DNA of 10,165 nucleotides from Desulfonatronospira sp. (GTDB lineage: Bacteria; Desulfobacterota; Desulfovibrionia; Desulfovibrionales; Desulfonatronovibrionaceae). Under the pieces are notes generated by a model. The model was not told the origin of the DNA. It did not search any database and worked only from the letters and a program-made list of their open reading frames with translations. Shown here in pieces: positions 1-10,165 of the stretch (positions are counted from its first letter, which is position 1; each line of letters starts with the position of its first letter). The translations under genes were made by a program, and so were the position numbers. Location of the stretch: contig PWGS01000289.1 of NCBI GenBank assembly GCA_003554505.1, positions 1 through 10,165 on the forward strand. Direction: 5' to 3'.

Positions 1-255
1 CTGACAAAATGGACAGGTTTTCCCTATATAGCTTTGATTTAAATATCTATTAGACTGCTTGAAATATGGCGGAGCAGTAAATAAAGCATCCTTAAATTGC
101 TCTACTTTGGAAAGAAGGGTCCACTCTTTTAAATGTTTAGACCATATATAAGTATCCCCATCAATAATATTACTTTTTATCATTGCTTCAATATTACTAG
201 TTGTAAAAGGTCCTATAGCTTTTTTATATTTATGATTATAATACCAAAATTCCAT
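1..255 (-). CDS. GYF_2 domain + RING-type zinc finger protein, N-terminal part (cut by window edge)
   Basis: An open frame starts at ATG 255 and runs off the left edge after 85 codons without a stop. Residues 1-50 look like a GYF_2 (DUF4339) domain: WYY at 4-6, GP at 15-16, the hydrophobic T-x-x-W at 35-38 and a second W at 45. GYF_2 domains usually bind proline-rich peptides or act as adaptors in bacterial membrane proteins. After a linker, residues 75-85 read SYIGKTCPFCQ, nearly matching the start of the RING finger encoded at 8004-6430 (SYVGITCPYCQ), so C81 and C84 are probably its first two zinc ligands. A GGGAGG ribosome binding site lies about 12 bases upstream of the ATG. The gene follows the JAB-LysM gene after a 141-base gap on the same strand. 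The domain calls come from motif recognition and the rest of the protein is unseen. Confidence 0.8.
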   Translation of the reverse strand, partial: MEFWYYNHKYKKAIGPFTTSNIEAMIKSNIIDGDTYIWSKHLKEWTLLSKVEQFKDALFTAPPYFKQSNRYLNQSYIGKTCPFCQ

Positions 256-396
256 CTATGATTTAGCCCTCCCTTTTAATATGAACCCAAAGTAGCAAAC
301 TATAAATCAAGCAATCCGCATAAATTAGCCATTAATGGTTGAAAACTACTCTTTTTAAAAAAAGTATTCCATGAACTTAAAGTAAAATATCTAAGT

Positions 397-1422
397 TTAC
401 CGGTCTATGTCAACGAGTTTTTCTGGTATTAAGAGTTTTTGCCCGGGTTTTATTAGATCGGGATTATCTATATTATTTAAACTAGCTAGCACTGGATATA
501 ATTCAGCGTCATCTAAATACTTTTCACTTATTGTAGATAATCTATCACCATCTCCAACAGTATACACAAGGTAGGTGTCCGTGGCTTCAGCTTGTTCTAA
601 TTCTTCTTCTAATTTATCCACTTCATCTTGCATATATGTTATTTCTTCCTCGGCAAACATAACACTTTCTTGCTCTTTGGAAACTTTATCCTGAGATACA
701 GCTAGAGCAGCTTCTAATTCATCAATTCGTTTATTCGCTTCCTGATTAGTAATAAACAAATAACCACTAATCAATAATAGAGCTGCTATTGCAGCAGCAG
801 ATACTACATTGCTAAGCGCTTTAGGCTTTTTCTTTTCAGTATCCAGTGGCATTGTGGGGGGAACTGGCGGTTTTGGCTGGATAGTGGTTTCAGTTTCAAA
901 TGGAATCTTGACAATACTACCACTATGCCATCCAAAATAGCCATGCTGCCCGGCTAAAGGATCAACTACATAAGCAACTTGCCAAAGCAAATTAAAAAAA
1001 TACTGGTGTATAAACTTATCGTATCCAGATAAAAATATTCCAAAACCAGGATGAGTATGGAACCAGCCAACGATAGTATAATCAGGATACTTTTCATCTT
1101 TAACTTTATTAATATAGTCCCAGGTATTGTGCGTAAAAGTAACGCTTCCTTTTGCTGCTTCAGTATAGCGCGCTTCTATTGCAGCTTTTACAAATATGCG
1201 ATAATGGCCATCCTTCTCCTCATAACTACCTAAAAGCACCCCGGCTAACTCTTGAGAAGTATCGCTTAAAGAATAGTCATATATAAACTTGGCTGAAGCT
1301 TCATTCATATATGCAAAAATCTTGTTACCGTTTTTATCTTCAGCAGGTTGTTCATGCTTCTTTCCAGATAATTCTATCTCAGAATCTAAATCTTCATTAT
1401 CATATTCTCTTGAATCGCTCAA
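397..1422 (-). CDS. JAB/JAMM isopeptidase fused to TM helix, coiled coil and LysM
   Basis: Counting from TTG 1422 (341 residues): an acidic tail at 1-30, a JAB/MPN metalloprotease domain at about 35-175, a Pro-rich linker, one membrane helix at about 203-224, a coiled coil at about 226-280 and a C-terminal LysM at about 285-332 (YTVGDGDRLSTIS ... IKPGQKLLIP). The JAMM zinc site is complete: E58, H122-x-H124, S132 and D135. JAB enzymes cleave isopeptide or peptide bonds after the C-terminus of ubiquitin-like proteins. The helix should leave the protease in the cytoplasm and place the LysM outside on peptidoglycan; that topology is inferred from positive charges (KKKPK) before the helix. Start choice: the AGGAG at 1431-1435 abuts the GTG at 1431 but sits 8 bases before TTG 1422, so TTG is preferred; GTG would add three residues. 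It is the last gene of a run beginning with the RDD gene. A clear homologue lies at 8158-8799. Confidence 0.88.
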   Translation of the reverse strand: MSDSREYDNEDLDSEIELSGKKHEQPAEDKNGNKIFAYMNEASAKFIYDYSLSDTSQELAGVLLGSYEEKDGHYRIFVKAAIEARYTEAAKGSVTFTHNTWDYINKVKDEKYPDYTIVGWFHTHPGFGIFLSGYDKFIHQYFFNLLWQVAYVVDPLAGQHGYFGWHSGSIVKIPFETETTIQPKPPVPPTMPLDTEKKKPKALSNVVSAAAIAALLLISGYLFITNQEANKRIDELEAALAVSQDKVSKEQESVMFAEEEITYMQDEVDKLEEELEQAEATDTYLVYTVGDGDRLSTISEKYLDDAELYPVLASLNNIDNPDLIKPGQKLLIPEKLVDIDR

Positions 1423-1430
1423 ACCAATCA

Positions 1431-1438
1431 CTCCTCTT
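1431..1438 (-). promoter_or_regulatory. Ribosome binding site that decides the JAB-LysM start
   Basis: On the minus strand this reads AAGAGGAG. It overlaps the first base of the upstream GTG candidate and lies 8 bases before TTG 1422, so spacing favours TTG as the initiation codon. Confidence 0.6.
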
Positions 1439-1472
1439 TTTAAATTACTCGGCCCGGGCTACCTCCTAACCT

Positions 1473-4469
1473 TTAATCATTGCTTAAAAACAAACATTCC
1501 ACGGGTGTGTTTCTGTTTGTTTCTGTACCATCACCAAGGCGACCGTAGGTATTGGAACCCCAGGCCCAAAGAGTTCCATCTTCTGTTAAAGCATGACCAT
1601 GGTAACCGCCAGCACTAATAGCTATGGCGTTTTGCAATCCCTCAACTTGTACCGGACTAGTTTTATTTTCGGTAGTCCCATCACCTAAACGGCCATCGCT
1701 ATTAGAGCCCCAGGCCCAAACAGTACCATCACCTTTTAGGGCATAGGAGTGATAATCACCGGCACTAACAGCTACCACATTGTTTAACTCGCTCACCTGC
1801 AGCGGTTCGCTTCTACTTTGGGTGGTGCCATCACCTAATTGGCCAAAAGTATTGCTTCCCCAAGACCAAACTGTGCCACCATTCTTTACAGCCAAAGCAT
1901 GGCCGCTACCAGCGCTGATCACTTTTACATTATTAAGTCCATCAACCTGTTCGGGACTGGTTACAGAAGACCAAGACTTTTCACCTTTTCCAACCTGGCC
2001 TTGACTATTAGAACCCCATGCCCAAACTCTTCCATCATTGGTTAAAGCAAGCGAAAACGAACTCCCTCCACTAACTGTCTTGACATCACCAAGACCGCTT
2101 ACTTGAACCGGCACATTTCTATCTGTCTGGGAGCCATCACCCAATTGTCCATGTGCATTGTAACCCCAAGCCCAGAGGGTTCCATCATTTTTCACAGCTA
2201 AAGAATGGGAATTACCGGCACCAAGTGACTTAACATTACTTAGGGTATGAACTTTTACCGGATTACCCTTGTCCTTGGCACTACCATCACCCAGCTGTCC
2301 TTTAGAATTATTTCCCCAGGCCCAAACATAGCCCTCATTCGTTACTGCCAGGGAATGAAACCGGCCAGATTTAACAGTTTCAGTTACATCTAAGTCGGGA
2401 ACCTGGATGGGTTCAAGATAACGATCTTTCATTAATCCATCTCTATTCCAATTACCTAGCTGGCCTTGATTATTGCTTCCCCATGCGCTGATTTTACCAT
2501 CTTCTCTTAAAGCAAGCGTATGTGATTCCCCACTACTAATCATTACCTCTGTTAAATCATCTATTTCTTTATCAGGTACCAGTTCTGGTTCCGGCTCTGG
2601 TTCAGGTTCTGGTTCTGGTTCAACTTCGGTTTCTTCTTTTGTAACCTTAACCACCGCCGAATCCTCAAGGGGCTCCATCATGCCCCCATGTTTCATAATC
2701 ATAGTACTTGCTGTAACTTCATACTCGCCTTCAATATCACTATCACTACGATAGAAGCCATCTTCATCAATATTACCGCCACCTGATACTTCCCAGTTAA
2801 TCTTGTTTATACTAAGCGATTCACCTTCCTTGTTTTCAACAATTGCATCAAACTGAGTACTTTCCCCGGATGCAATTTCAGCTTCTTCAGGCATAACACT
2901 CAGTTGTGGAGCGGTACGTACGTAAAAAACTTTCTCATGTTCAGTTTCATCAGCAATAGCATATATGACTTGAGCAACAAATAATTCGGCAGTACGGGCA
3001 AATCTCCACCATATATTGCCAAGCAGGTCAATTAAAAACTGCTCTCCTTGTTTTGCGGCCCATTCTCGAGTTATATCCCAAAAATAGCCGGCAAGTCTAT
3101 AAGCACCCCCCATATAACTGGCTTCTTGCCACTCTTCTTCTTCCAAACGTTGAGAATCTTCCCGCAAGTATTCATAAAGAGATACTAAAGCTGCCAATTC
3201 ATCACGTTCCTCCAATAATTCCGGACCGATTGGCCAAGGCAAAGGGTCCCCCGTCGCCAAGCGGTGCAATGCATCTATCCAAGTCATAGCTATAGCATCC
3301 CAACTGGAAGCTGATAACATTAACGAGCTTTCGCCGCCAACACCATAAAAAGTATAAACTAGATCTTTTTGCTCATTAGGCGCAAGATACCCCTGCCGAG
3401 AAGTAAAACGGTTGAAATGCCAATCACCGGGTGCTTCCACAGAAAGCTGGTTTACCCCTGAAGAGGCCTCCAAAGAATACCAGGGGCTACTACCAAATCC
3501 CATAATTAAGCCCTCTACTGCCTCCAATTTAACTATTACTTCTGCATGCCCCTCTTCGGTTATAGAGGTCTCTTGCGAATCGGAAAACAAAGGGGAATTT
3601 TCGTCTATTTTATGAAAGACCGCCACTACAAAGCTGCTCAATTCTTCAACTTGTAATTGAATCTCTTGATCGGAAACTTCTACAAGTCCACCAGGCAAGC
3701 CAAAACCGTCTTGCCCCTCATAGAGGATCATAGTTTTCTCAGTATCAAGATCAGCAGGAATTAAAAAGTTAAGTTCAACCGGCGGGTGTTCAGGTAGCTC
3801 AGCTTCGGTATAAATCTCAATATCATAAGCACCATGTATTTCAAGGATGCCATCTTTTTCCGGTTCTTCATAGGAAGTTGCTTTCAATCGAAGTTCAGCA
3901 TCCATATCTTGCTCTATTGGCCTAACCTCAATCTCTAATCCAGCAGGAGAAGTATATGCAACACCTTCAGCAGTAGAAAAATTTATATGTTCATGGTCTT
4001 CTGCAGCAGACTTTTGCTCTGTAAAAAAATCACCAAAAAGAAAAACTCCGGCGCCCCCACCTACAAAAAGGATAACAAGTACAGCTACAACACCTGCAAG
4101 TAAACCTTTTCTATTTTTTCTCTTTTTAGTTGATGAATATTCGGGAGGGGTGCCAGCTATATCGAAAGTTGATCGGTTATCCACACCCTGGTAATTATAA
4201 CTATGTTGGCGAGCAGATTCCGAAAATGTTCTTTTATTAGAAGTTGACCAGGATCCTGATTTAAGGGTTATTCCTTCTTGCTCTTCCGGTGATAAAGCTT
4301 CGTAGTCTAGATTTATGCTAACCTCTTTTTGGGCTTGATCAGAATTCGCCTCTTCTGATAGGTCTTTTACCTCAAGTTTTTCTTTCTTGTTTCTTTCTTT
4401 TTCAGAGTCGTCTGTATCCAAATCCTCAAGGTTGATTTCAATTTTTTTACGCTTTTTGGGATCTTCCAT
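1473..4469 (-). CDS. Large single-pass membrane protein with extracellular Ig-like domain and seven-bladed RCC1 propeller
   Basis: About 998 residues from ATG 4469. Residues 1-120 are a charged cytoplasmic tail with KIEINLEDLD at 9-18 and a weaker copy (VSINLD) near 50-55. A basic stretch (KKRKNRK) precedes one membrane helix at about 122-146. Outside follow a beta-rich region (about 165-390), a Trp-rich helical region (about 395-515), an Ig-like domain (about 520-610, resembling bacterial Big domains), a Pro-Glu linker (615-629), and seven RCC1 repeats (about 640-992), each with the S-G/A-G...H-S-L-A-L...DG...WAWG-x-N-x-x-G-Q-L-G pattern. Seven repeats are enough for one closed beta-propeller, in bacteria usually a protein-binding scaffold. 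The regions between 165 and 515 are unassigned. Start choice: a GTG at 4481 is in frame, but ATG 4469 has the GGTGGGG stretch upstream and aligns the tail motif with that of the RDD protein. Its stop is about 50 bases before the JAB-LysM start. Confidence 0.87.
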   Translation of the reverse strand: MEDPKKRKKIEINLEDLDTDDSEKERNKKEKLEVKDLSEEANSDQAQKEVSINLDYEALSPEEQEGITLKSGSWSTSNKRTFSESARQHSYNYQGVDNRSTFDIAGTPPEYSSTKKRKNRKGLLAGVVAVLVILFVGGGAGVFLFGDFFTEQKSAAEDHEHINFSTAEGVAYTSPAGLEIEVRPIEQDMDAELRLKATSYEEPEKDGILEIHGAYDIEIYTEAELPEHPPVELNFLIPADLDTEKTMILYEGQDGFGLPGGLVEVSDQEIQLQVEELSSFVVAVFHKIDENSPLFSDSQETSITEEGHAEVIVKLEAVEGLIMGFGSSPWYSLEASSGVNQLSVEAPGDWHFNRFTSRQGYLAPNEQKDLVYTFYGVGGESSLMLSASSWDAIAMTWIDALHRLATGDPLPWPIGPELLEERDELAALVSLYEYLREDSQRLEEEEWQEASYMGGAYRLAGYFWDITREWAAKQGEQFLIDLLGNIWWRFARTAELFVAQVIYAIADETEHEKVFYVRTAPQLSVMPEEAEIASGESTQFDAIVENKEGESLSINKINWEVSGGGNIDEDGFYRSDSDIEGEYEVTASTMIMKHGGMMEPLEDSAVVKVTKEETEVEPEPEPEPEPEPELVPDKEIDDLTEVMISSGESHTLALREDGKISAWGSNNQGQLGNWNRDGLMKDRYLEPIQVPDLDVTETVKSGRFHSLAVTNEGYVWAWGNNSKGQLGDGSAKDKGNPVKVHTLSNVKSLGAGNSHSLAVKNDGTLWAWGYNAHGQLGDGSQTDRNVPVQVSGLGDVKTVSGGSSFSLALTNDGRVWAWGSNSQGQVGKGEKSWSSVTSPEQVDGLNNVKVISAGSGHALAVKNGGTVWSWGSNTFGQLGDGTTQSRSEPLQVSELNNVVAVSAGDYHSYALKGDGTVWAWGSNSDGRLGDGTTENKTSPVQVEGLQNAIAISAGGYHGHALTEDGTLWAWGSNTYGRLGDGTETNRNTPVECLFLSND
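2583..2621 (-). repeat. Hexanucleotide repeat encoding the Pro-Glu linker
   Basis: Six and a half copies of a 6-base unit (GAACCA with synonymous variants such as GAGCCG and GAACCT on the minus strand) encode alternating Glu-Pro between the Ig-like domain and the RCC1 propeller. Such a tract gives a stiff extended spacer. Its copy number could change by slippage without breaking the frame, because each unit is two codons. Confidence 0.85.
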
Positions 4470-4530
4470 CCGCCCCACCACCCGATTATCATCTAGCTAT
4501 CCTAAGCTTCTTTACACTTCATGCGTCACA

Positions 4531-4929
4531 TTATTCAATTTGTTTTGTTACCCTGCCATCTTTTAAAGTTTTATAAAGATATCCATCAACATCATCATTT
4601 TGGTAGTAAACCCACTCATCAATAACATTTATTGCCCGGAATCCATCGTTGTTAACCCTGACTTTATCACTGCCATCAGTCCTTATTTTGAATATTCTTT
4701 TATCACTATCGTAGTTTCGATAATAAATCCAATCTCCTTTTCGAGCAACCAATCCATCATTTACTACATTTTCAGTTGTGTTGCCAACTATATATTCCAT
4801 AGTAACGAGGTGTAAATTTTTGGAGAATTCTTCAACTAAGTAATTCCCTCCTAAAAGAATCAGGCAAAAAATAATTAACAAAAATAAGGTAGTTTTAGTG
4901 AAGCTAAAAACTACCTTGTCGATATTCAT
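4531..4929 (-). CDS. Small membrane-anchored protein with two DUF5050-like repeats
   Basis: 132 residues from ATG 4929. A membrane helix at about 8-29 is followed by a linker and two tandem repeats of roughly 38 residues with the pattern W-I/V-Y-Y...Y/I-F/Y-K...DG (WIYYRN...IFKIRTDGS, then WVYYQN...LYKTLKDG). This is the repeat style of DUF5050/TolB-like propeller proteins, which normally carry more repeats; with only two it cannot close a propeller alone, so it may oligomerise or dock on a partner such as the RCC1 protein next door. The repeats probably lie outside the cell. The start overlaps the end of the RDD gene by 26 bases in another frame, suggesting translational coupling. A TTG at 4938 is a possible earlier start adding three residues; neither has a strong ribosome binding site. 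Function unknown. Confidence 0.72.
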   Translation of the reverse strand: MNIDKVVFSFTKTTLFLLIIFCLILLGGNYLVEEFSKNLHLVTMEYIVGNTTENVVNDGLVARKGDWIYYRNYDSDKRIFKIRTDGSDKVRVNNDGFRAINVIDEWVYYQNDDVDGYLYKTLKDGRVTKQIE

Positions 4930-5575
4930 CAACTTCAATGACTTGCGTATTCATAAGCATATCACCAAGCCGGTGCCCCTTCCCATGAAATAGGACTATT
5001 GTTTCATCGATTCCACTAAGCACACTACCTATTAAATTACGAACTACAGAATTGCCTTTTGTACAAGGGCGATTATCCTCTATCCTTACCACCATTAAGC
5101 CCAACATTTTTTTGCCTATGCTTTGGCCGTTACCTAAACCATCACGAATTAAAAACCATATCAATGGTATAAAGAAAAATAATACTGAAAATATAAAAAT
5201 CATTATATAGCTTCCTGATCCTGCTCTTCCATAGATTATTTGGGGCAATGATGAATATATTATCACCACGCCAATACCTGCCACAATAAATAGAATAAAG
5301 CTATCCACAAGATATGCCAAAATACGTTTGCCAATATTTGATTTGGGATAATCAAGGGCACCACTTGAAGCAACCCTTGATCCTGATTGATAAGAACGCG
5401 AGCTTGATGGGCTTGCTACTCCTGATTGAGAATAACTATAACTGGACACAGATCTTTTAGGTCGATCTTGTTCTTTAGGTAAATCAATATCTATCTTACT
5501 TGATTTTTGTGATGATTCATCATCTAAATCCTCCAGGTCAATGTCGATTTTATCTGACCTTTTACGTTTATCCAT
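4904..5575 (-). CDS. RDD family membrane protein with tandem tail motif
   Basis: 223 residues from ATG 5575, with GAGGTG six bases upstream. Residues 1-80 form a hydrophilic Ser-rich tail with two copies of a short motif: KIDIDLEDLD at 9-18 and KIDIDL at 27-32. Residues 81-215 match the RDD family: R84...D91 in the first helix (about 83-108), a second helix (about 121-144), the conserved GQSIGKKMLGL at 150-160, and HRLGDMLMNTQVI at 201-213. RDD proteins are small integral membrane proteins; some have been proposed as transporters, but here the tail shared with the RCC1 protein argues for a structural or docking role. The RDD domain is of normal length and appears intact. It is the first gene of the run RDD - DUF5050-like - RCC1 - JAB-LysM. 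Confidence 0.88.
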   Translation of the reverse strand: MDKRKRSDKIDIDLEDLDDESSQKSSKIDIDLPKEQDRPKRSVSSYSYSQSGVASPSSSRSYQSGSRVASSGALDYPKSNIGKRILAYLVDSFILFIVAGIGVVIIYSSLPQIIYGRAGSGSYIMIFIFSVLFFFIPLIWFLIRDGLGNGQSIGKKMLGLMVVRIEDNRPCTKGNSVVRNLIGSVLSGIDETIVLFHGKGHRLGDMLMNTQVIEVDEYRQGSF

Positions 5576-5662
5576 TCTTTACACCTCACTTTAAAATTTG
5601 ATTTGACAGTATGTACCGTTCTGGAAGATATATGACTGTTTCTTCTTTTTTTCCACTTGCCA

Positions 5663-5691
5663 ATTATATGCTCAATATACTTCATCAAACG
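5663..5691 (-). promoter_or_regulatory. Weak candidate promoter for the RDD-RCC1-JAB run
   Basis: On the minus strand a perfect TATAAT (5663-5668) lies 17 bases after CGTTTG (5686-5691), a poor -35 match. It would start RNA near 5656, about 80 bases before the RDD start codon. The -10 is good but AT-rich sequence makes chance matches common. Confidence 0.3.
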
Positions 5692-6224
5692 AGACAGCTT
5701 GATTGCTCACCTCCTCAGGCACTTCAATGCTATCTATGGGATCAAACTCCAAATAATCAAATACCATTATTTGGTTCATGCTAAAGTCTTCACCTTCACT
5801 TACCGCGTCAATGTTGAAATACATTTTACTTTCCGTTGGTAAATAGGTGTCCTGATCAACTGTTATGCTATAGGTTATATCTGATATATTCATTCCTCTT
5901 ATGAACCCCTCCATCTCAGGATCATGCAAAAACTCCGCACCGATTTGCACTTCAAATTCTTCTTCAATCTGTTTAGCAAAATCACCGTTTTCATCTTTAT
6001 AAGTCAACTCATAATGTTCATCTTCTATTTTCATGTTTACATCTTTTTTGTTTGCCAAACGTAGCATATAAATATATTCAAAAGGATCCTTATAAAATTT
6101 CAGTAAGGGTAACATCTACAAATAAATCTTCTTTAACCCAACCGTAATCTGGTAGATCCATATATAGAGTGTCGTCAGCTATGTACATTATTGTATCCAC
6201 TTTCACATCTGCGACATTCACAAA
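5672..6224 (-). pseudogene. Frameshifted, 5'-truncated remnant resembling a DUF6612-type lipoprotein
   Basis: Two reading frames carry consecutive parts of one protein. The upstream frame (6224-6090) includes DTLYMDLPDYGWVKEDLF and ends at TAA 6092-6090; the downstream frame (open from about 6115 to the stop at 5672) continues with LKFYKDPFEYIYMLRLANKK and then about 120 residues ending in an acidic, Pro-rich tail. The Y-M-x-x-P-x-x-G-W-V-K pattern followed by YxDPxEY resembles DUF6612-type surface lipoproteins of Firmicutes (LppX-like fold); that assignment is from memory of the family. The join needs a net +1 frame change near 6092-6110. Upstream there is an in-frame TAG at 6227-6225 and no signal peptide or lipobox, so the 5' half is missing. 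The reading frame opened at ATG 6115 has no convincing ribosome binding site, so the 147-residue product is probably not made as such. Confidence 0.75.
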
Positions 6225-6395
6225 CTACACCACTCTCATCATAAAATAAATTGCAATCTCAATTTCACATATTGACTCAAATATTGAACCTAAATTCGAG
6301 CGATAAAAAAGTAAGCTAAGATGGGTGTTAATAATTCTTGATGCATTAGTCTAAGTGCAGATAAAAATTTTTTCTATATTAAAGCTTAATTTCCT

Positions 6396-6425
6396 TTAAA
6401 AAATCAGGTTTACTTTATCATTCAT
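6396..6425 (-). pseudogene. Stranded translation start: 9-codon stub after the RING gene
   Basis: AAGGAG (6433-6438) lies 7 bases before ATG 6425, an ideal initiation site overlapping the last codons of the RING gene. The frame gives only MNDKVNLIF before TAA at 6398-6396. It most likely marks the original start of the gene whose 3' remnant lies at 6224-5672. A translated nonapeptide or leader is possible but less likely. The stretch 6395-6225 holds no long open frame on either strand. Confidence 0.5.
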
Positions 6426-6429
6426 AATA

Positions 6430-8004
6430 TTACTCCTTTTTATAAATTCTATCAGGGGTGTTATTTTCATAGCTATTATTATCAGGGGAAGATAATACTA
6501 TCGAGGAATCATCGTCCACCCAAATAGCCCCGCCTTTATTTGACGCAATGTTGCCTTGAAATATGTTTTTTTCTATAGTTGCCATTGCACCCTCATTAAC
6601 ATGAATACCGCCGCCATCTGCATCTGCCTTATTGTTATTAATTTTGTTTTCTGTAATAATTACATTTTCGTTTTGGCGAGCAAAGATTCCTGCCCCCATG
6701 TAGGCATGATTAGAAGCTATCTTATTTCTACTAATCTTGGCATCTGACATGTGAGCTACATATATTCCTCCGCCCCAATTGCCTGAATAGTTTTCTATGA
6801 TCTGGTTATCTTTTATATCAGTTGAGCACATCATTGCAACCATAATTCCTCCTCCAATATCAGAGGCGCTGTTATTTTCAATTAAATTAGCTGTAATTTG
6901 TGGGTTAGAGCGGTACCAAACAAGGATGCCACCGGCAAAGGTATCTGAGTAATTATTGATGATGGCATTGTTTTTTATAATAGGAGATGAATTGTCCAAA
7001 ATAGCAATACCACCCCCTGCTCCTAAAACATCTGATGTGACATCTTCAACCTTATTTTCTACAATAATGTTATTAGTTATTGTAGGATCGCTATTACCGG
7101 TTATATAAATACCACCACCGTACTGCCTTTCAAATTCAAGTTGTGAGCCACCATAGGAGGTTATTTGATAGCTATCTTGAGTTCCTATTCCACCAGTTAT
7201 GGTGAGACCAGCTAAATATGAATTATTGCTCTCTCCATTCTCGAAAGTAACCACCGAACCTTCTCCATCCCCTTTAATAACTGTGTTAGCTACAACTTCA
7301 GGACTTTCTGGATCCTTACTTCGAAGTATAATATCTTTGCCCTTAAAATCAATTGTTTCTTCATAAACACCTTCTGAGACCACAATAATATCTCCATTAG
7401 AGGCATTATCTATTGCAGATTGGATGTTGTTGTAATCATCTGGAACTTTGATATTGCCATTATCTTGAATAGCCCTATCGTCTGTTGTATCTGCCATGCT
7501 GAGTCCGGCAAAAATAATAAGTATTAAGGAACCCATTAACCCAAAAATAGCAAAATTTCTTTTACAACGAACTTGAAACAGGCCTATAATTGCCAAGAAT
7601 AGCGTAAATAAAGGAGCTAATATAATAATCCCGTAATCTACATCATTTAACAAAAAAAGCAAAGCACCAATGATAACACCAAAAAAAGATAAAATACCTG
7701 TTGTAGTTTCATTCTTATTATCATCAAAAGAACCTTCATTAGAATGGTCTTCAACTCCATGAATATCTTCCGTTTCTAGATTAATTTTTTTATTTTGATG
7801 ACTATTCTCACTAAAAGCAACTTCCCCATTTTCAATTAGCGAATACTTTTTGCTATCACAGCCAAAAGTAGTACACTGGGTATTTTCATTCCAACAATCT
7901 TTATGGTGGGGGATCTTACAATCAACGCAAATAACTATATCAGAGTGCTGTTTAATGGGAAACTGACAATACGGACAAGTTATACCCACATAACTCTTAG
8001 ACAT
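6430..8004 (-). CDS. RING-type zinc finger - three TM helices - extracellular parallel beta-helix protein
   Basis: 524 residues from ATG 8004 (GAGGGG 10 bases upstream; an in-frame TTG at 8022 overlaps that site and is rejected). Residues 8-50 are a prokaryotic RING-type treble clef: C10-x2-C13, C26-x2-C29, H33/H34, C37, C44, C49. Such domains bind two zincs and in bacteria can act as E3-like adaptors, though not all do. An acidic linker with KKINLETED (72-80) leads to three helices (about 103-119, 124-145, 151-170), placing the finger inside and the C-terminus outside. Residues 183-505 form a right-handed parallel beta-helix of the NosD/pectate-lyase type: IQSAIDNASNGDIIVVSEGVYEE at the cap, then about nine coils with GGGI and N-x-I-x-x-N patterns. 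Such helices usually bind or cleave polysaccharide; no catalytic residues can be assigned. It lies 153 bases after the JAB gene at 8158. Confidence 0.88.
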   Translation of the reverse strand: MSKSYVGITCPYCQFPIKQHSDIVICVDCKIPHHKDCWNENTQCTTFGCDSKKYSLIENGEVAFSENSHQNKKINLETEDIHGVEDHSNEGSFDDNKNETTTGILSFFGVIIGALLFLLNDVDYGIIILAPLFTLFLAIIGLFQVRCKRNFAIFGLMGSLILIIFAGLSMADTTDDRAIQDNGNIKVPDDYNNIQSAIDNASNGDIIVVSEGVYEETIDFKGKDIILRSKDPESPEVVANTVIKGDGEGSVVTFENGESNNSYLAGLTITGGIGTQDSYQITSYGGSQLEFERQYGGGIYITGNSDPTITNNIIVENKVEDVTSDVLGAGGGIAILDNSSPIIKNNAIINNYSDTFAGGILVWYRSNPQITANLIENNSASDIGGGIMVAMMCSTDIKDNQIIENYSGNWGGGIYVAHMSDAKISRNKIASNHAYMGAGIFARQNENVIITENKINNNKADADGGGIHVNEGAMATIEKNIFQGNIASNKGGAIWVDDDSSIVLSSPDNNSYENNTPDRIYKKE

Positions 8005-8014
8005 AAATAATATA

Positions 8015-8020
8015 CCCCTC
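8015..8020 (-). promoter_or_regulatory. Ribosome binding site fixing the RING-beta-helix start
   Basis: GAGGGG on the minus strand, 10 bases before ATG 8004. The upstream TTG candidate at 8022-8020 overlaps this site and so cannot use it, which sets the start of the 524-residue protein. Confidence 0.6.
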
Positions 8021-8077
8021 AATAATTAGTATTGCAGATTTTTTTGCCAGTCTTCCAGAATATTGGATATGCAATCG

Positions 8078-8101
8078 AAAATTAAACAAAGCAGCACTTT
8101 G
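8078..8101 (-). terminator. Weak candidate terminator after the soluble JAB gene
   Basis: On the minus strand CAAAG-TGCTG-CTTTG (8101-8087) can fold into a 5-bp stem, extended by one G-T pair, and is followed by TTTAATTTT. It lies 56 bases after the JAB stop. The stem is short and the T-tract interrupted, so leaky or no termination is likely. Confidence 0.25.
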
Positions 8102-8157
8102 CAAAATCAGGTTAGAGCAATATACAAAAATATGCATATCCGTTATATTTATTGGAT

Positions 8158-8799
8158 TTATAATGTTAAATAATAATTTATAATTCTACCGACAAACTGT
8201 TCTTTATAGGCAATAATTTTACCCTTTTCACTTTCATTATTTTTCTCAGTTTCAATTCTACTCCACTTAGGAATTCTAACAATCCGACTTCCATACCATC
8301 CAAAGAAAGCTTTTTCAGCTATTATAGGATCTACAACATATGCAACCTGCCACGGAAAACTAAAAAAGTTTTTCTGAATGAATAAGTCCGACTTTGAGAG
8401 AAATACTCCCAGTCTAGGATGAGTATGAAACCAACCAATTACTTTTTTATCAGGAAAGTCATTATCTCTAATGTTATTTATATGCTCCCAAGTTTTGTGG
8501 GTGAATTTTAAATTAAACTTCGTACTCTCGGTAAAAGTAGCTATTATGCCAATATCTATTGATAATTGGTAGGAATCACTATATTCAAAATAACTACCCA
8601 TTAATATGCCACCAAGTTCACGCGAAGTATCACTTCGAGCATATTGGTCTATTTTTTTCTCAAGATCATAATTAATATTAACTATAGGCTTCTTCTTTTT
8701 ACAGGCATCTTTACTAACCTGGCCTTTTTGTCCACGATTATTTTTTAAAACAATATCTAGGTCTAAATTGTCATCTAGGTTATGAAAGTTATTTTCCAC
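8158..8799 (-). CDS. Soluble JAB/JAMM isopeptidase
   Basis: 213 residues from GTG 8799, supported by AAAGGTG ending 7 bases upstream. A short acidic tail (NLDDNLDLDIVL at 7-18) and a basic patch (CKKKKP, 33-38) precede a JAB/MPN domain at about 38-178. The JAMM residues are complete: E61, H125-x-H127, S135, D138. It aligns without gaps to the JAB domain encoded at 397-1422 from DTS[RQ]EL through GWFHTHP, WQVAYVVDP and FGW to RIVRIP, so the two are paralogues. Unlike its partner it has no membrane helix or LysM and ends soon after the protease domain. Expected activity is removal or maturation of a ubiquitin-like modifier in the cytoplasm; the substrate is not visible here. It stands first after a promoter-bearing gap and may be transcribed with the RING gene downstream. 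Confidence 0.9.
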   Translation of the reverse strand: MENNFHNLDDNLDLDIVLKNNRGQKGQVSKDACKKKKPIVNINYDLEKKIDQYARSDTSRELGGILMGSYFEYSDSYQLSIDIGIIATFTESTKFNLKFTHKTWEHINNIRDNDFPDKKVIGWFHTHPRLGVFLSKSDLFIQKNFFSFPWQVAYVVDPIIAEKAFFGWYGSRIVRIPKWSRIETEKNNESEKGKIIAYKEQFVGRIINYYLTL

Positions 8800-8858
8800 A
8801 GATTATCACCTTTAGAAACATATTATGCATGCAGGAGTTACATTTATTTTAAGGCATT

Positions 8859-8887
8859 ATTCTAAATTTTCCGTTTAAACTTTGCAA
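8859..8887 (-). promoter_or_regulatory. Candidate sigma-A promoter for the soluble JAB gene
   Basis: On the minus strand TTGCAA (8887-8882), a 17-base spacer and TAGAAT (8864-8859) match the -35 and -10 consensus at 4 and 5 of 6 positions. RNA would start near 8852, leaving about 50 bases before GTG 8799. It is the best promoter match I found in the window. Confidence 0.5.
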
Positions 8888-8905
8888 TCAACAATTACAT
8901 ATCCG

Positions 8906-8944
8906 TATGAATTCTATTAATTCTTGTTGTTTGTTGAATTCATA
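8906..8944. repeat. 9-bp inverted repeat upstream of the JAB promoter
   Basis: TATGAATTC at 8906-8914 and its exact reverse complement GAATTCATA at 8936-8944 are separated by 21 bases. No T-tract follows on either strand, so it does not look like an intrinsic terminator for the metalloprotease gene. It sits just upstream of the candidate promoter, where a dimeric regulator could bind. Confidence 0.55.
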
Positions 8945-8980
8945 ATCACAAATCACCTAATTTCTCGCAGCTTATATTTT

Positions 8981-10165
8981 TTAATTTATGCCTTTACTAC
9001 GCGAGATAGCCAATATAACCGAAAATAAAATGATCAATAGAACAGCAATTATAAAGTAATAAATATGGCTATCATCAATTAGATCGAGTGGAATAGTTTG
9101 TTCATCAGTAATCGCTTTATCACCATGTTCATTTATATTAACTTTTTGCAATTCAACCTGTAGGTGTACCTCTTTTAACCCGATTGCGCTCATCCTCTGC
9201 TTTGCTGGCGTTGTATCGATCATATATTCTATTTCGATATCATCTGGAACAGAAATCCACTCAGGACCACCACCGGGAATATTACCACTTGCCCTGGCTC
9301 CTGGGATTTCAATAAGATATTCTCCTGATTTATAATCCATCCCCACTTTTTCACCACTGGTAGAATATACTTTTAAATCAACATCAAAAATTTCATTGAT
9401 AAAATCATAATTTAATAAAGCATCTTTACCATTAACAAATGAATCAGGAGTGGTTAAAAACATTCGGTAAATATTCCTGCTTTTTGGCTTATGCTTCTTG
9501 ATCTCAATCTCCATCCCCGTATCACTTTTTCTTGCTGAATATTTAGCTCCAGCCAGATCACAAACATAACTTTCTCCTGTAGTCAGGGTTGGAGTGAAAG
9601 CATTGGTTTGCTTTTTGTGTAAATATTTTTTTTGATCATAAATTGCATACATTTCCGAACGTCCGTTAATATCCTTTTGCACATAAATCAAAACTCCTGG
9701 CTCATCAGCTAGCTGATTTTCAGATACATACCATGCAGGCCACCGGTCTTTTTGTTCAACCTCATGAGAAGGATGTCTTCCCTCAAATATATAATACGGT
9801 TGCAGTTTATCATCAGTCTCGTGCCGTAATACTGAATCACCTGCTTCAAGGTTATTAATAACATCAATTGTGTACAACCCGTAAGCATTATTATTTATAG
9901 TTTTCCAGTTAAGCCATCCCGCATCAACTTTATTATAGGAGATAATTGATGGAGGTGGATTAATGTTACTACCTGCACCCATTACCCCCCATGGTCCAAC
10001 TTCACCTCTAGACCATTCATAATCGGCCTCACTATAATAATCAGCCCACTTAAAGAGCGCATGTCCAAGCTCGTGTGCCCAAACAGAAAATGGTTCACTG
10101 TCAGAAGTAAAAACCATATTTGTAGGACTAATACCTTCGTCGCTAGCACCACTCTGAGGAACAAA
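8981..10165 (-). CDS. M6-type (immune-inhibitor-A-like) metalloprotease with C-terminal membrane anchor, 5' end missing
   Basis: The frame is open from the right edge to the stop at 8981: 394 codons visible, so the true start lies outside. Counting from the edge, HELGH at 31-35 is the zinc-binding catalytic motif, followed by D42 in FKWADYY and by GPWGVMGAG at 57-65, the arrangement of M6 peptidases (HExxH...D, then W-x-x-M-G-x-G), a secreted family including Bacillus InhA. After the protease comes a beta-rich region (about 170-360) of unknown function. A membrane helix at about 369-387 with a short basic tail (SRSKGIN) anchors the C-terminus, so the catalytic domain should face outside. The N-terminal signal peptide and propeptide cannot be seen. 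It is separated from the JAB gene by 181 bases containing a promoter candidate, so co-transcription is uncertain; shared function is inferred from position only. Confidence 0.85.
   Translation of the reverse strand, partial: FVPQSGASDEGISPTNMVFTSDSEPFSVWAHELGHALFKWADYYSEADYEWSRGEVGPWGVMGAGSNINPPPSIISYNKVDAGWLNWKTINNNAYGLYTIDVINNLEAGDSVLRHETDDKLQPYYIFEGRHPSHEVEQKDRWPAWYVSENQLADEPGVLIYVQKDINGRSEMYAIYDQKKYLHKKQTNAFTPTLTTGESYVCDLAGAKYSARKSDTGMEIEIKKHKPKSRNIYRMFLTTPDSFVNGKDALLNYDFINEIFDVDLKVYSTSGEKVGMDYKSGEYLIEIPGARASGNIPGGGPEWISVPDDIEIEYMIDTTPAKQRMSAIGLKEVHLQVELQKVNINEHGDKAITDEQTIPLDLIDDSHIYYFIIAVLLIILFSVILAISRSKGIN

Follow-up and report, generated by a model that had tools for sequence, protein, structure and literature searches.

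A tail motif common to JAB peptidases, conjugation enzymes and envelope proteins suggests a membrane-tethered ubiquitin-like system in bacteria

The window studied here is the whole of contig PWGS01000289.1 (positions 1 to 10,165; open frames reach past both ends), which is binned with a Desulfonatronospira sp. genome. It encodes two JAB peptidases, RING-type fingers and membrane proteins with large outer modules. We propose, with a probability of about 0.6, that the window holds accessory genes of a ubiquitin-like conjugation system tethered to the membrane, and that a short motif in the tails of its proteins is a common dock, most likely for the ubiquitin-like protein (Ubl). Computation established the components, their co-occurrence in relatives, the catalytic residues and the motif.

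A search with JAB1, the first of the two window JABs, gave 595 proteins at E ≤ 1e-3 among 8,000 candidates scored, of which the best 120 were analysed. An alignment of 41 of these 120 homologues was used to scan genome contigs, and 367 of the 379 pattern matches encode relatives. The best 80 relatives constitute the locus set; they come from Bacillota, Armatimonadota, Chloroflexota and Planctomycetota, with a few from other groups. Gene families were obtained by clustering and named by Pfam on 42 chosen members, and genes were counted by six-frame profile searches. The loci contain a recurrent operon composed of a YukD-family Ubl (PF08817, about 89 residues), a ThiF E1 (about 395 residues), an E2 (UQ_con), JABs and Prok-RING_1 proteins, accompanied by a trypsin-like S1 protease and an FHA protein. 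Of the 44 loci that span 15 kb or more, 42 have a Ubl, 42 an E1, 43 an E2 and 42 a RING, which bears out the connection of JAB and RING genes with E1, E2 and YukD-like Ubls stated in a first-pass annotation of the window. Over all 80 loci, the counts are 64 for Ubl, 67 for E1, 71 for E2, 67 for RING, 38 for S1 and 37 for FHA-type proteins, the last being a loose figure, as the FHA profile was seeded with some E2–FHA fusions. Ubl, E1 and E2 are all present in 61 of the 80 loci; six loci carry none of the three, and three of these six are contigs shorter than 6 kb. JAB and RING genes that are never near each other would have spoken against that annotation, and this outcome did not occur: a RING gene lies within 3 kb of a JAB gene in 59 of the 80 loci. 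JAB, RING, Ubl, E1 and E2 are also found together on the complete chromosome behind locus L067 (Singulisphaera acidiphila).

The HPN motif and the cysteine of the E2s are invariant in 26 aligned sequences; in the E2 cluster, which includes FHA proteins, 66 of 77 members have them. Four or more transmembrane (TM) segments are predicted in 22 of 63 E2s by a simple hydropathy count, and the Prok-RING_1 proteins of the loci mostly carry TM segments as well. All 45 Ubls contain the sequence PE[IV][TV]AG; 24 end there and 21 extend 1–107 residues further, as would be expected of a precursor, which JAB probably trims after this sequence. The Ubl with the 107-residue extension (L008:3740-4330, plus strand) has a zinc ribbon and a terminal hydrophobic stretch after AG, and looks as if it were a membrane-anchored precursor. 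The Ubl model is a confident beta-grasp fold (predicted local distance difference test score, pLDDT, 90.7), close to ubiquitin variants, NEDD8, SUMO, Caldiarchaeum ubiquitin and a bacterial Ubl.

The tails of several of these families share the motif acidic-Phi-x-I-x-Phi ([DE]-Phi-x-I-x-[LFI]), located at the N-terminus of JAB and E1 and at the C-terminus of E2 and of the S1 protease, a membrane protein. D-Phi-x-I-[DE]-[LF] lines up across the JAB N-tails, and the residues around it hardly do. Examples are the S1 ends DDLEIELK and DFEIEIE, the E2 ends DDLGIELL and DDIEIEFN, the E1 start DDLGIELI and the FHA-type start MNDKIEINFDGED. The motif was counted by a fixed rule in 40-residue tails and compared with shuffled tails. 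It is present in 39 of 128 JAB N-tails (shuffle mean 3.9, maximum 9), 18 of 58 E1 N-tails (1.9, 5), 16 of 63 E2 C-tails (2.6, 7) and 26 of 33 S1 C-tails (0.9, 4); the FHA-type N-tails, a small mixed group, have it in 3 of 12 (0.6, 3). At their other ends, JAB, E1, E2 and S1 have no match, and neither do the 45 Ubls at either end; the 89 RING proteins gave one N-terminal match (in L064) and no C-terminal match. Control open reading frames (ORFs) of the same loci, taken from a crude gene caller, stay at background, with 6 of 902 N-tails (shuffle mean 4.7) and 11 of 910 C-tails (8.2). A relaxed rule raises the control C-tails slightly (57 of 910; shuffle mean 38, maximum 54), and the strict rule was relied upon for this reason.

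The rule was written after examples had been seen; therefore, genomes outside the 80 loci are a better test. Three such genomes (G441, G302 and G287), whose stretches have no blastn similarity to the 80 loci, were read with a slightly wider rule and 50-residue N-tails. The motif is present in all three S1 C-tails, in two of three E2 C-tails and in one of two full-length E1 N-tails; in G287, the E1 and E2 tails are without it. Tails of different proteins can also resemble each other within a locus. In L009, for example, the S1 C-tail and the JAB N-tail have nine identical residues in common, TDFEIDILE. Five or more residues are common to different tails in 7 of 382 pairs within a locus, versus 191 of 26,823 pairs across loci (shuffles, 0.35, maximum 2), a sharing that phylogeny could explain. 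The tail motif itself is well supported.

The features of the window are as follows.

1–255, minus strand: GYF_2 domain (1.3e-11), then the opening cysteines of a second RING-type finger; the contig ends inside this gene
397–1431, minus strand: JAB1, with a disordered N-tail carrying the motif, an Rpn11-like JAMM peptidase domain, a TM segment or long helix, and LysM
1363–1389, minus strand: motif in the JAB1 N-tail, LDSEIELSG
1473–4469, minus strand: RCC1-type receptor candidate, with a cytosolic tag tail, one TM segment (by eye), a large ectodomain and a C-terminal RCC1 propeller
4293–4322, minus strand: further tag-like stretch in the RCC1-type protein, VSINLDYEAL
4407–4448, minus strand: tag 1 of the RCC1-type protein, KKIEINLEDLDTDD
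4531–4938, minus strand: mini-protein with a TM segment and a DUF5050 fragment
4904–5575, minus strand: RDD membrane protein (RDD 2.1e-18), with two tag copies in its N-tail
5471–5500, minus strand: RDD tag 2, SKIDIDLPKE
5516–5554, minus strand: RDD tag 1, DKIDIDLEDLDDE
5672–6250, minus strand: half-size, decayed-looking DUF6612-family gene (5672–6115 in its narrower extent), matching the C-terminal half of the profile alone
6430–8004, minus strand: RING-TM-beta-helix protein, with Prok-RING_1, about three TM segments (by eye) and a right-handed beta-helix
7858–7977, minus strand: complete RING finger (Prok-RING_1, E = 6.6e-12; eight Cys/His ligands counted by eye)
8158–8799, minus strand: JAB2, with an N-tail carrying the motif and a JAMM peptidase domain
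8746–8778, minus strand: motif in the JAB2 N-tail, LDDNLDLDIVL
8981–10165, minus strand: M6-type metalloprotease adjoining JAB2, 5' end off the contig, with an HELGH site and a C-terminal hydrophobic stretch

All the window genes named here are on the minus strand. The order of transcription is the M6-type metalloprotease (5' cut), JAB2, the RING-TM-beta-helix protein, the half-size DUF6612 gene and RDD, followed by the TM-DUF5050 mini-protein, the RCC1-type membrane protein, JAB1 (JAB-TM-LysM) and the gene with GYF_2 and the second RING start. Residues and profile matches confirm the two intact JAMM sites, the complete RING and the second RING start, all on this strand, that had been read from the letters, and also the membrane proteins carrying beta-helix, RCC1 and LysM modules and RDD (RCC1 repeats, 8.3e-86; right-handed beta-helix, 3.1e-21; LysM, 4.7e-9). 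The TM-DUF5050 mini-protein, the DUF6612 gene, the M6-type metalloprotease and the motif tails were absent from that earlier list. The second finger stops with the contig after GKTCPFCQ, and its RING type was deduced by eye from these few residues; in this gene (1–255), GYF_2 alone exceeds its cut-off. The M6-type metalloprotease matches TIGR03296 at 6.3e-15, under the cut-off of that model, and its short end has no tail motif by eye. The JAB1 start codon is probably a TTG a few codons into the ORF, because the record P0001 has 341 residues. The RCC1-type ORF opens at 4481, and an ATG yielding MEDPKKRKK agrees with the homologues. The ORF of the RING-TM-beta-helix protein opens at 8022; the ATG at 8004 has the likelier ribosome site by eye.

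By eye and by the positive-inside rule, the motif tails are predicted to be cytosolic, as are the RING and JAB domains, and LysM, the RCC1 and DUF5050 propellers and the beta-helix outside. This split is in line with the coupling of an intracellular Ubl cycle to the cell wall put forward in the first-pass annotation, and the recognition or removal cycle itself stays a proposal.

The JAMM sites of both window JABs are intact, HTHPGFGIFLSGYD at 1018–1059 and HTHPRLGVFLSKSD at 8386–8427, and the upstream Glu is present (Pfam JAB, E = 5.4e-10 and 1.8e-9). JAMM is also intact in all 120 of the best-listed JAB1 homologues. The JAB1 model is nearest to Rpn11 and to the Caldiarchaeum Rpn11 homologue. 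The motif of JAB1 would belong to a tail rather than to a strand of the JAB fold, because model residues 1–30 have pLDDT below 50 (about 37–42 in the tail). A minimal motif core is present in 24 of the 27 best JAB1 records, JAB1 included (shuffle mean 3.2, maximum 9), and in 68 of the 120 best-listed homologues (16.2, 25); under the stricter rule, which demands one more hydrophobic residue, LDSEIELSG of JAB1 itself would fail.

The RDD and RCC1-type envelope proteins of the window, otherwise unrelated, carry a longer form of the motif, for example KIDIDLEDLD, which opens the RCC1-type protein. The first 600 residues of this protein gave ten matches, six of them close (P0121–P0126, 47–59% identity over 99–100%), and the tag opens all six of the close homologues, for example MRDSKKPRKIDIDLEDLELDD. 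Their C-terminal propeller is RCC1 in two and DUF5050 in one (P0122), and none was seen in three. In P0122, DUF5050 thus replaces RCC1 on the same tagged stem; the fragment at 4531–4938 of the window may be compared. Twelve RDD homologues were found, of which six were read (P0132–P0137): tags of the kind of RDD tag 1 are present in P0132–P0134 and absent from P0135 and P0137, and P0136 is a RING–RDD fusion. RDD tag 1 has a nine-residue identity with the RCC1-type homologue P0122. Between the N-tails of RDD and RCC1-type proteins, the longest shared word averages 4.96, and none of 300 shuffles gave a mean above 3.39; the record word length (9 versus 8 in shuffles) is less telling. Because their cytosolic N-tails carry the same tag, the RDD and RCC1-type proteins may be clients or receptors of the system.

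The records of P0121 and of the JAB homologue P0002 give the same longest-contig size (16,665), as do those of P0124 and P0011 (11,089), which suggests, without proving it, that JAB and tagged RCC1-type genes are linked in these sources.

A working scheme can be drawn from these elements. The core, as seen in relatives, would be the Ubl, E1, the HPN/Cys E2 and Prok-RING_1 proteins as putative E3s, with Rpn11-like JABs that would process and remove the Ubl. The motif in the tails of E1, E2, JAB, the trypsin-like protease and some FHA-type proteins would be the common dock. An ectodomain (RCC1 or DUF5050 propeller, beta-helix or LysM) would sense or bind something at the wall; the tag would bring the Ubl, or a Ubl-charged enzyme, to the receptor site at the membrane, where the RING protein would promote conjugation nearby and the JABs would reverse it. 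Conjugation, trimming and sensing, as well as a true host that holds the core, are what we infer. In make-up, the motif is like SUMO-interacting motifs (SIMs) and ATG8-interacting motifs (AIMs). SUMO takes up SIMs at strand beta2 and helix alpha1, and receptors and enzymes of the ATG8 pathway carry short docking motifs of the AIM or LC3-interacting region (LIR) type. We tentatively suggest, at somewhat less than even odds, a bacterial counterpart of the SIM/LIR code, with one Ubl-interacting tail motif, borne by E1, E2 and JAB, by a serine protease of the envelope and by exchangeable surface receptors (RCC1, DUF5050, RDD), that would recruit the YukD-type Ubl to the inner membrane face upon cell-wall events.

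The Ubl seems the likeliest receptor of the motif, because the Ubl and, with one exception, the RING proteins are without it, and because L040 and L011, in which no RING was detected, keep the Ubl and the motif (the L011 sequence stops shortly past its JABs). These two loci disfavour the RING as receptor. Across beta2 and alpha1 of the Ubl, with the acidic loop between them excluded, the net charge is +2 to +4 in 29 of 29 sequences, which is consistent with docking of an acidic motif but does not prove it; residues 39–89 are never net positive. Lys15 of the Ubl is invariant.

Several results weigh against the proposed accessory role and Ubl docking. To begin with the motif counts, the shuffles treat related sequences as independent, the strict rule misses 89 of 128 JABs, 40 of 58 E1s and 47 of 63 E2s, and in the new genomes neither of the two JAB N-tails read has the motif. 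The long form of the tag, searched with a strict DNA pattern, was not found in any of 50 genomes that hold JAB loci (50 of 55 first drawn from the 80 loci), which marks it as lineage-specific. The charge of the Ubl groove also becomes less distinctive once the acidic loop is counted: the beta2-loop-alpha1 segment then has a mean charge of +1.4 (range −1 to +4) and is positive in 24 of 29 sequences.

This last result leaves room for another hub. The motif might be a general assembly tag that binds an FHA or zinc-ribbon protein, or the folded part of E1, E2 or JAB, and keeps a membrane complex together with no Ubl recognition. FHA domains and zinc ribbons recur in the loci, and every core family tested bears the motif save the Ubl and, bar one protein, RING; both points speak for such a tag. 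However, L040 and L011 keep the motif with no FHA detected either, E1, E2 and JAB bear it themselves and would have to bind their own kind, and the strand-like acidic motif resembles SIMs. We consider another hub possible but rather doubtful.

The remaining adverse results concern the core genes. The search for them proposed in the first-pass annotation succeeded in the homologous loci and not at home: Ubl, E1 and E2 genes were found neither in the window nor, for Ubl, E2 and a system E1, in its own bin (G000, 82.6% complete). A weak ThiF relative in the bin (71 bits) is not a system E1. Among 150 relatives, this bin included, Ubl was found in none; JAB-model matches outside the window, among the matches listed, start at model position 159 or later (the coiled-coil/LysM half), and none of those listed covers the JAB domain. 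Furthermore, 398 genomes were drawn evenly from the phylum of genome G171, which was included, with cut-offs of 1e-12 for JAB and 1e-8 for Ubl and E2. There are 30 genomes with a JAB match, 3 with Ubl and 5 with an E2 match (one weak). Among the five genomes with the best JAB matches, Ubl occurs in three and E2 in four; G359 has neither. Fifteen of the other 25 JAB genomes were viewed (L139–L153), and their stretches of about 3.4 kb are without Ubl, E1, E2 or RING. JAB alone does not imply Ubl. Several of these fifteen are JAB-TM-LysM proteins by eye.

These absences suit a view of the window as a decoupled remnant, in which the JAB and RING genes, formerly part of a Ubl system, have become independent of any Ubl and the JABs are ordinary envelope-linked peptidases; the existence of JAB-TM-LysM relatives without Ubl and the decayed-looking DUF6612 gene point the same way. 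The relatives of JAB2 fit this view in part. By identity, its closest row is L042 (46%), outside the Ubl loci, and in a quick tree JAB2 joins L137 (no Ubl) and L138 (from a Ubl genome) at 81. On the other hand, the rows nearest by path to both window JABs are mostly Ubl-locus JABs, the forks near the window being weak, and the two JABs score 184 and 162 bits with the profile of Ubl-locus JABs versus 131 and 129 bits with the sister profile, which was built from fewer sequences. Tags and catalytic residues are conserved in the homologues. Moreover, the contig is merely 10 kb long and probably misbinned or foreign: its GC content is 0.372, versus 0.416–0.576 in 20 of the 306 bin contigs. In mean tetranucleotide correlation it ranks last of 21, with 0.329 (0.359 for the one above it). 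The absence of the core from the bin therefore says little. We regard a remnant as unlikely. As a separate observation, L137 and L157, from G359, show a JAB among apparent housekeeping genes in a genome without a Ubl or E2 match; L137 is the fork partner of JAB2.

As to the partner genes, RCC1 was not found in the 80 loci by a pattern screen, and this too counts against the proposed role; beta-helix is absent among the 25 of 48 families listed for the 88 RING proteins. Of the RDD, RCC1 and beta-helix genes whose adjacency the first-pass annotation proposed to examine, RDD is tied to the system by RING–RDD fusions (RDD is found in 2 of the 88 RING proteins, and P0136 is such a fusion) and by the common tag. 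RCC1-type proteins appear only as the six close homologues from the database; for two of these, the longest contig has the size given for a close JAB homologue. These gaps are what one would expect if RDD, RCC1 and beta-helix genes merely happened to lie beside JAB and RING. Such a chance neighbourhood is nevertheless highly improbable, given that RDD and RCC1-type proteins and their homologues have one N-terminal tag in common, that RING–RDD and RING–beta-helix are fused in single proteins, and that the paired records agree in contig size.

The conjugation enzyme set is of a published kind, and the tail motif across the system is the new part. Work by Burroughs et al. in 2011 reportedly placed RINGs and YukD-like Ubls in prokaryotic conjugation neighbourhoods. 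The families reportedly described there are the same as here (Ubl, ThiF E1, E2, Prok-RING_1 and JAB in one neighbourhood), and that work is not known to report a tail motif common to the system, or RCC1, RDD or trypsin-like partners that carry a tag. No report of a shared tail motif in such systems was found in the open-access literature searched, subscription papers being outside its scope. Of the combination which the first-pass annotation did not recognize, the enzyme set is familiar. PMC7159879 cites Burroughs et al. for prokaryotic E1-E2-RING-JAB systems with YukD-like Ubls, and sets of Ubl, E1, E2 and JAB were described in prokaryotes by Iyer et al. 2006 (PMC1779556); here and below, PMC numbers refer to excerpts of the articles.

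The Bil and Bub systems (PMC13373217, PMC11354881) and type II cyclic-oligonucleotide-based anti-phage signalling systems (CBASS; PMC10097602) follow the same Ubl, E1, E2 and JAB logic. Unlike in these, many parts here have TM segments, and RING, S1 protease and FHA proteins join. PADLOC gave generic JAB matches alone for the window JABs and assigned no defence system; on L031, it gave none for the Ubl, the E2 and the FHA protein, and partial E1–E2 and BilD matches for the E1. Among the nine proteins compared with the Bil models, with L031 as the one locus covered, the L031 E1 alone matched (BilD, 33.5 bits, partial, under several E1–E2 models). A scan of IMG/VR found that 0 of 94 pattern matches encode a relative, and a plasmid scan gave one distant JAB.

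The Caldiarchaeum ubiquitin cascade with its Rpn11 homologue (PMC5654768, PMC6043591) has the same E1, E2, RING and Rpn11 set and is archaeal. Its JAB and Ubl are among the solved structures nearest to the models here, and the excerpts of that work mention neither a LysM/TM JAB nor the tail motif. The YukD/EsaB (TsxB) proteins of type VII secretion belong to the same Ubl family, PF08817, and have no C-terminal Gly-Gly (PMC11217815), whereas the Ubl here has PE[IV][TV]AG and is encoded beside E1 and E2. A crude regular-expression screen of the window and the 80 loci found no FtsK-like protein and three weak WXG-like small ORFs. A DUF5050 propeller, TsgL, has been reported in the type VII secretion system T7SSg (PMC11217815).

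In the SUMO/SIM (PMC12687455) and ATG8/LIR-AIM (PMC7198486) systems, too, disordered regions of conjugation enzymes, of proteases or of receptors carry short motifs; SENP proteases, for example, bear SIMs in disordered extensions (PMC12687455). The likeness is one of make-up alone, as the motif here is known from sequence, and no common descent is claimed. Should the Ubl prove to be the receptor, bacteria would have a counterpart of the SIM/LIR logic that eukaryotic modifiers follow. The literature searched showed neither substrates nor a purpose for those bacterial E1-E2-RING-JAB systems that lie outside phage defence; a common docking motif would provide a sequence handle for finding clients and would place the cycle at the membrane.

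Some other genes of the loci may be mentioned. The protein at L081:6367-7653 (plus strand), which falls into the S1 protease cluster and has a RING-type finger at its start, is likely a RING–trypsin fusion. An M48 peptidase with a motif-like N-tail is encoded within the Ubl operon of L031 (4498–5334, plus strand). In G287, a run of similar short ORFs resembling a repeat array (L155:14265-15469) separates the Ubl locus from the E2.

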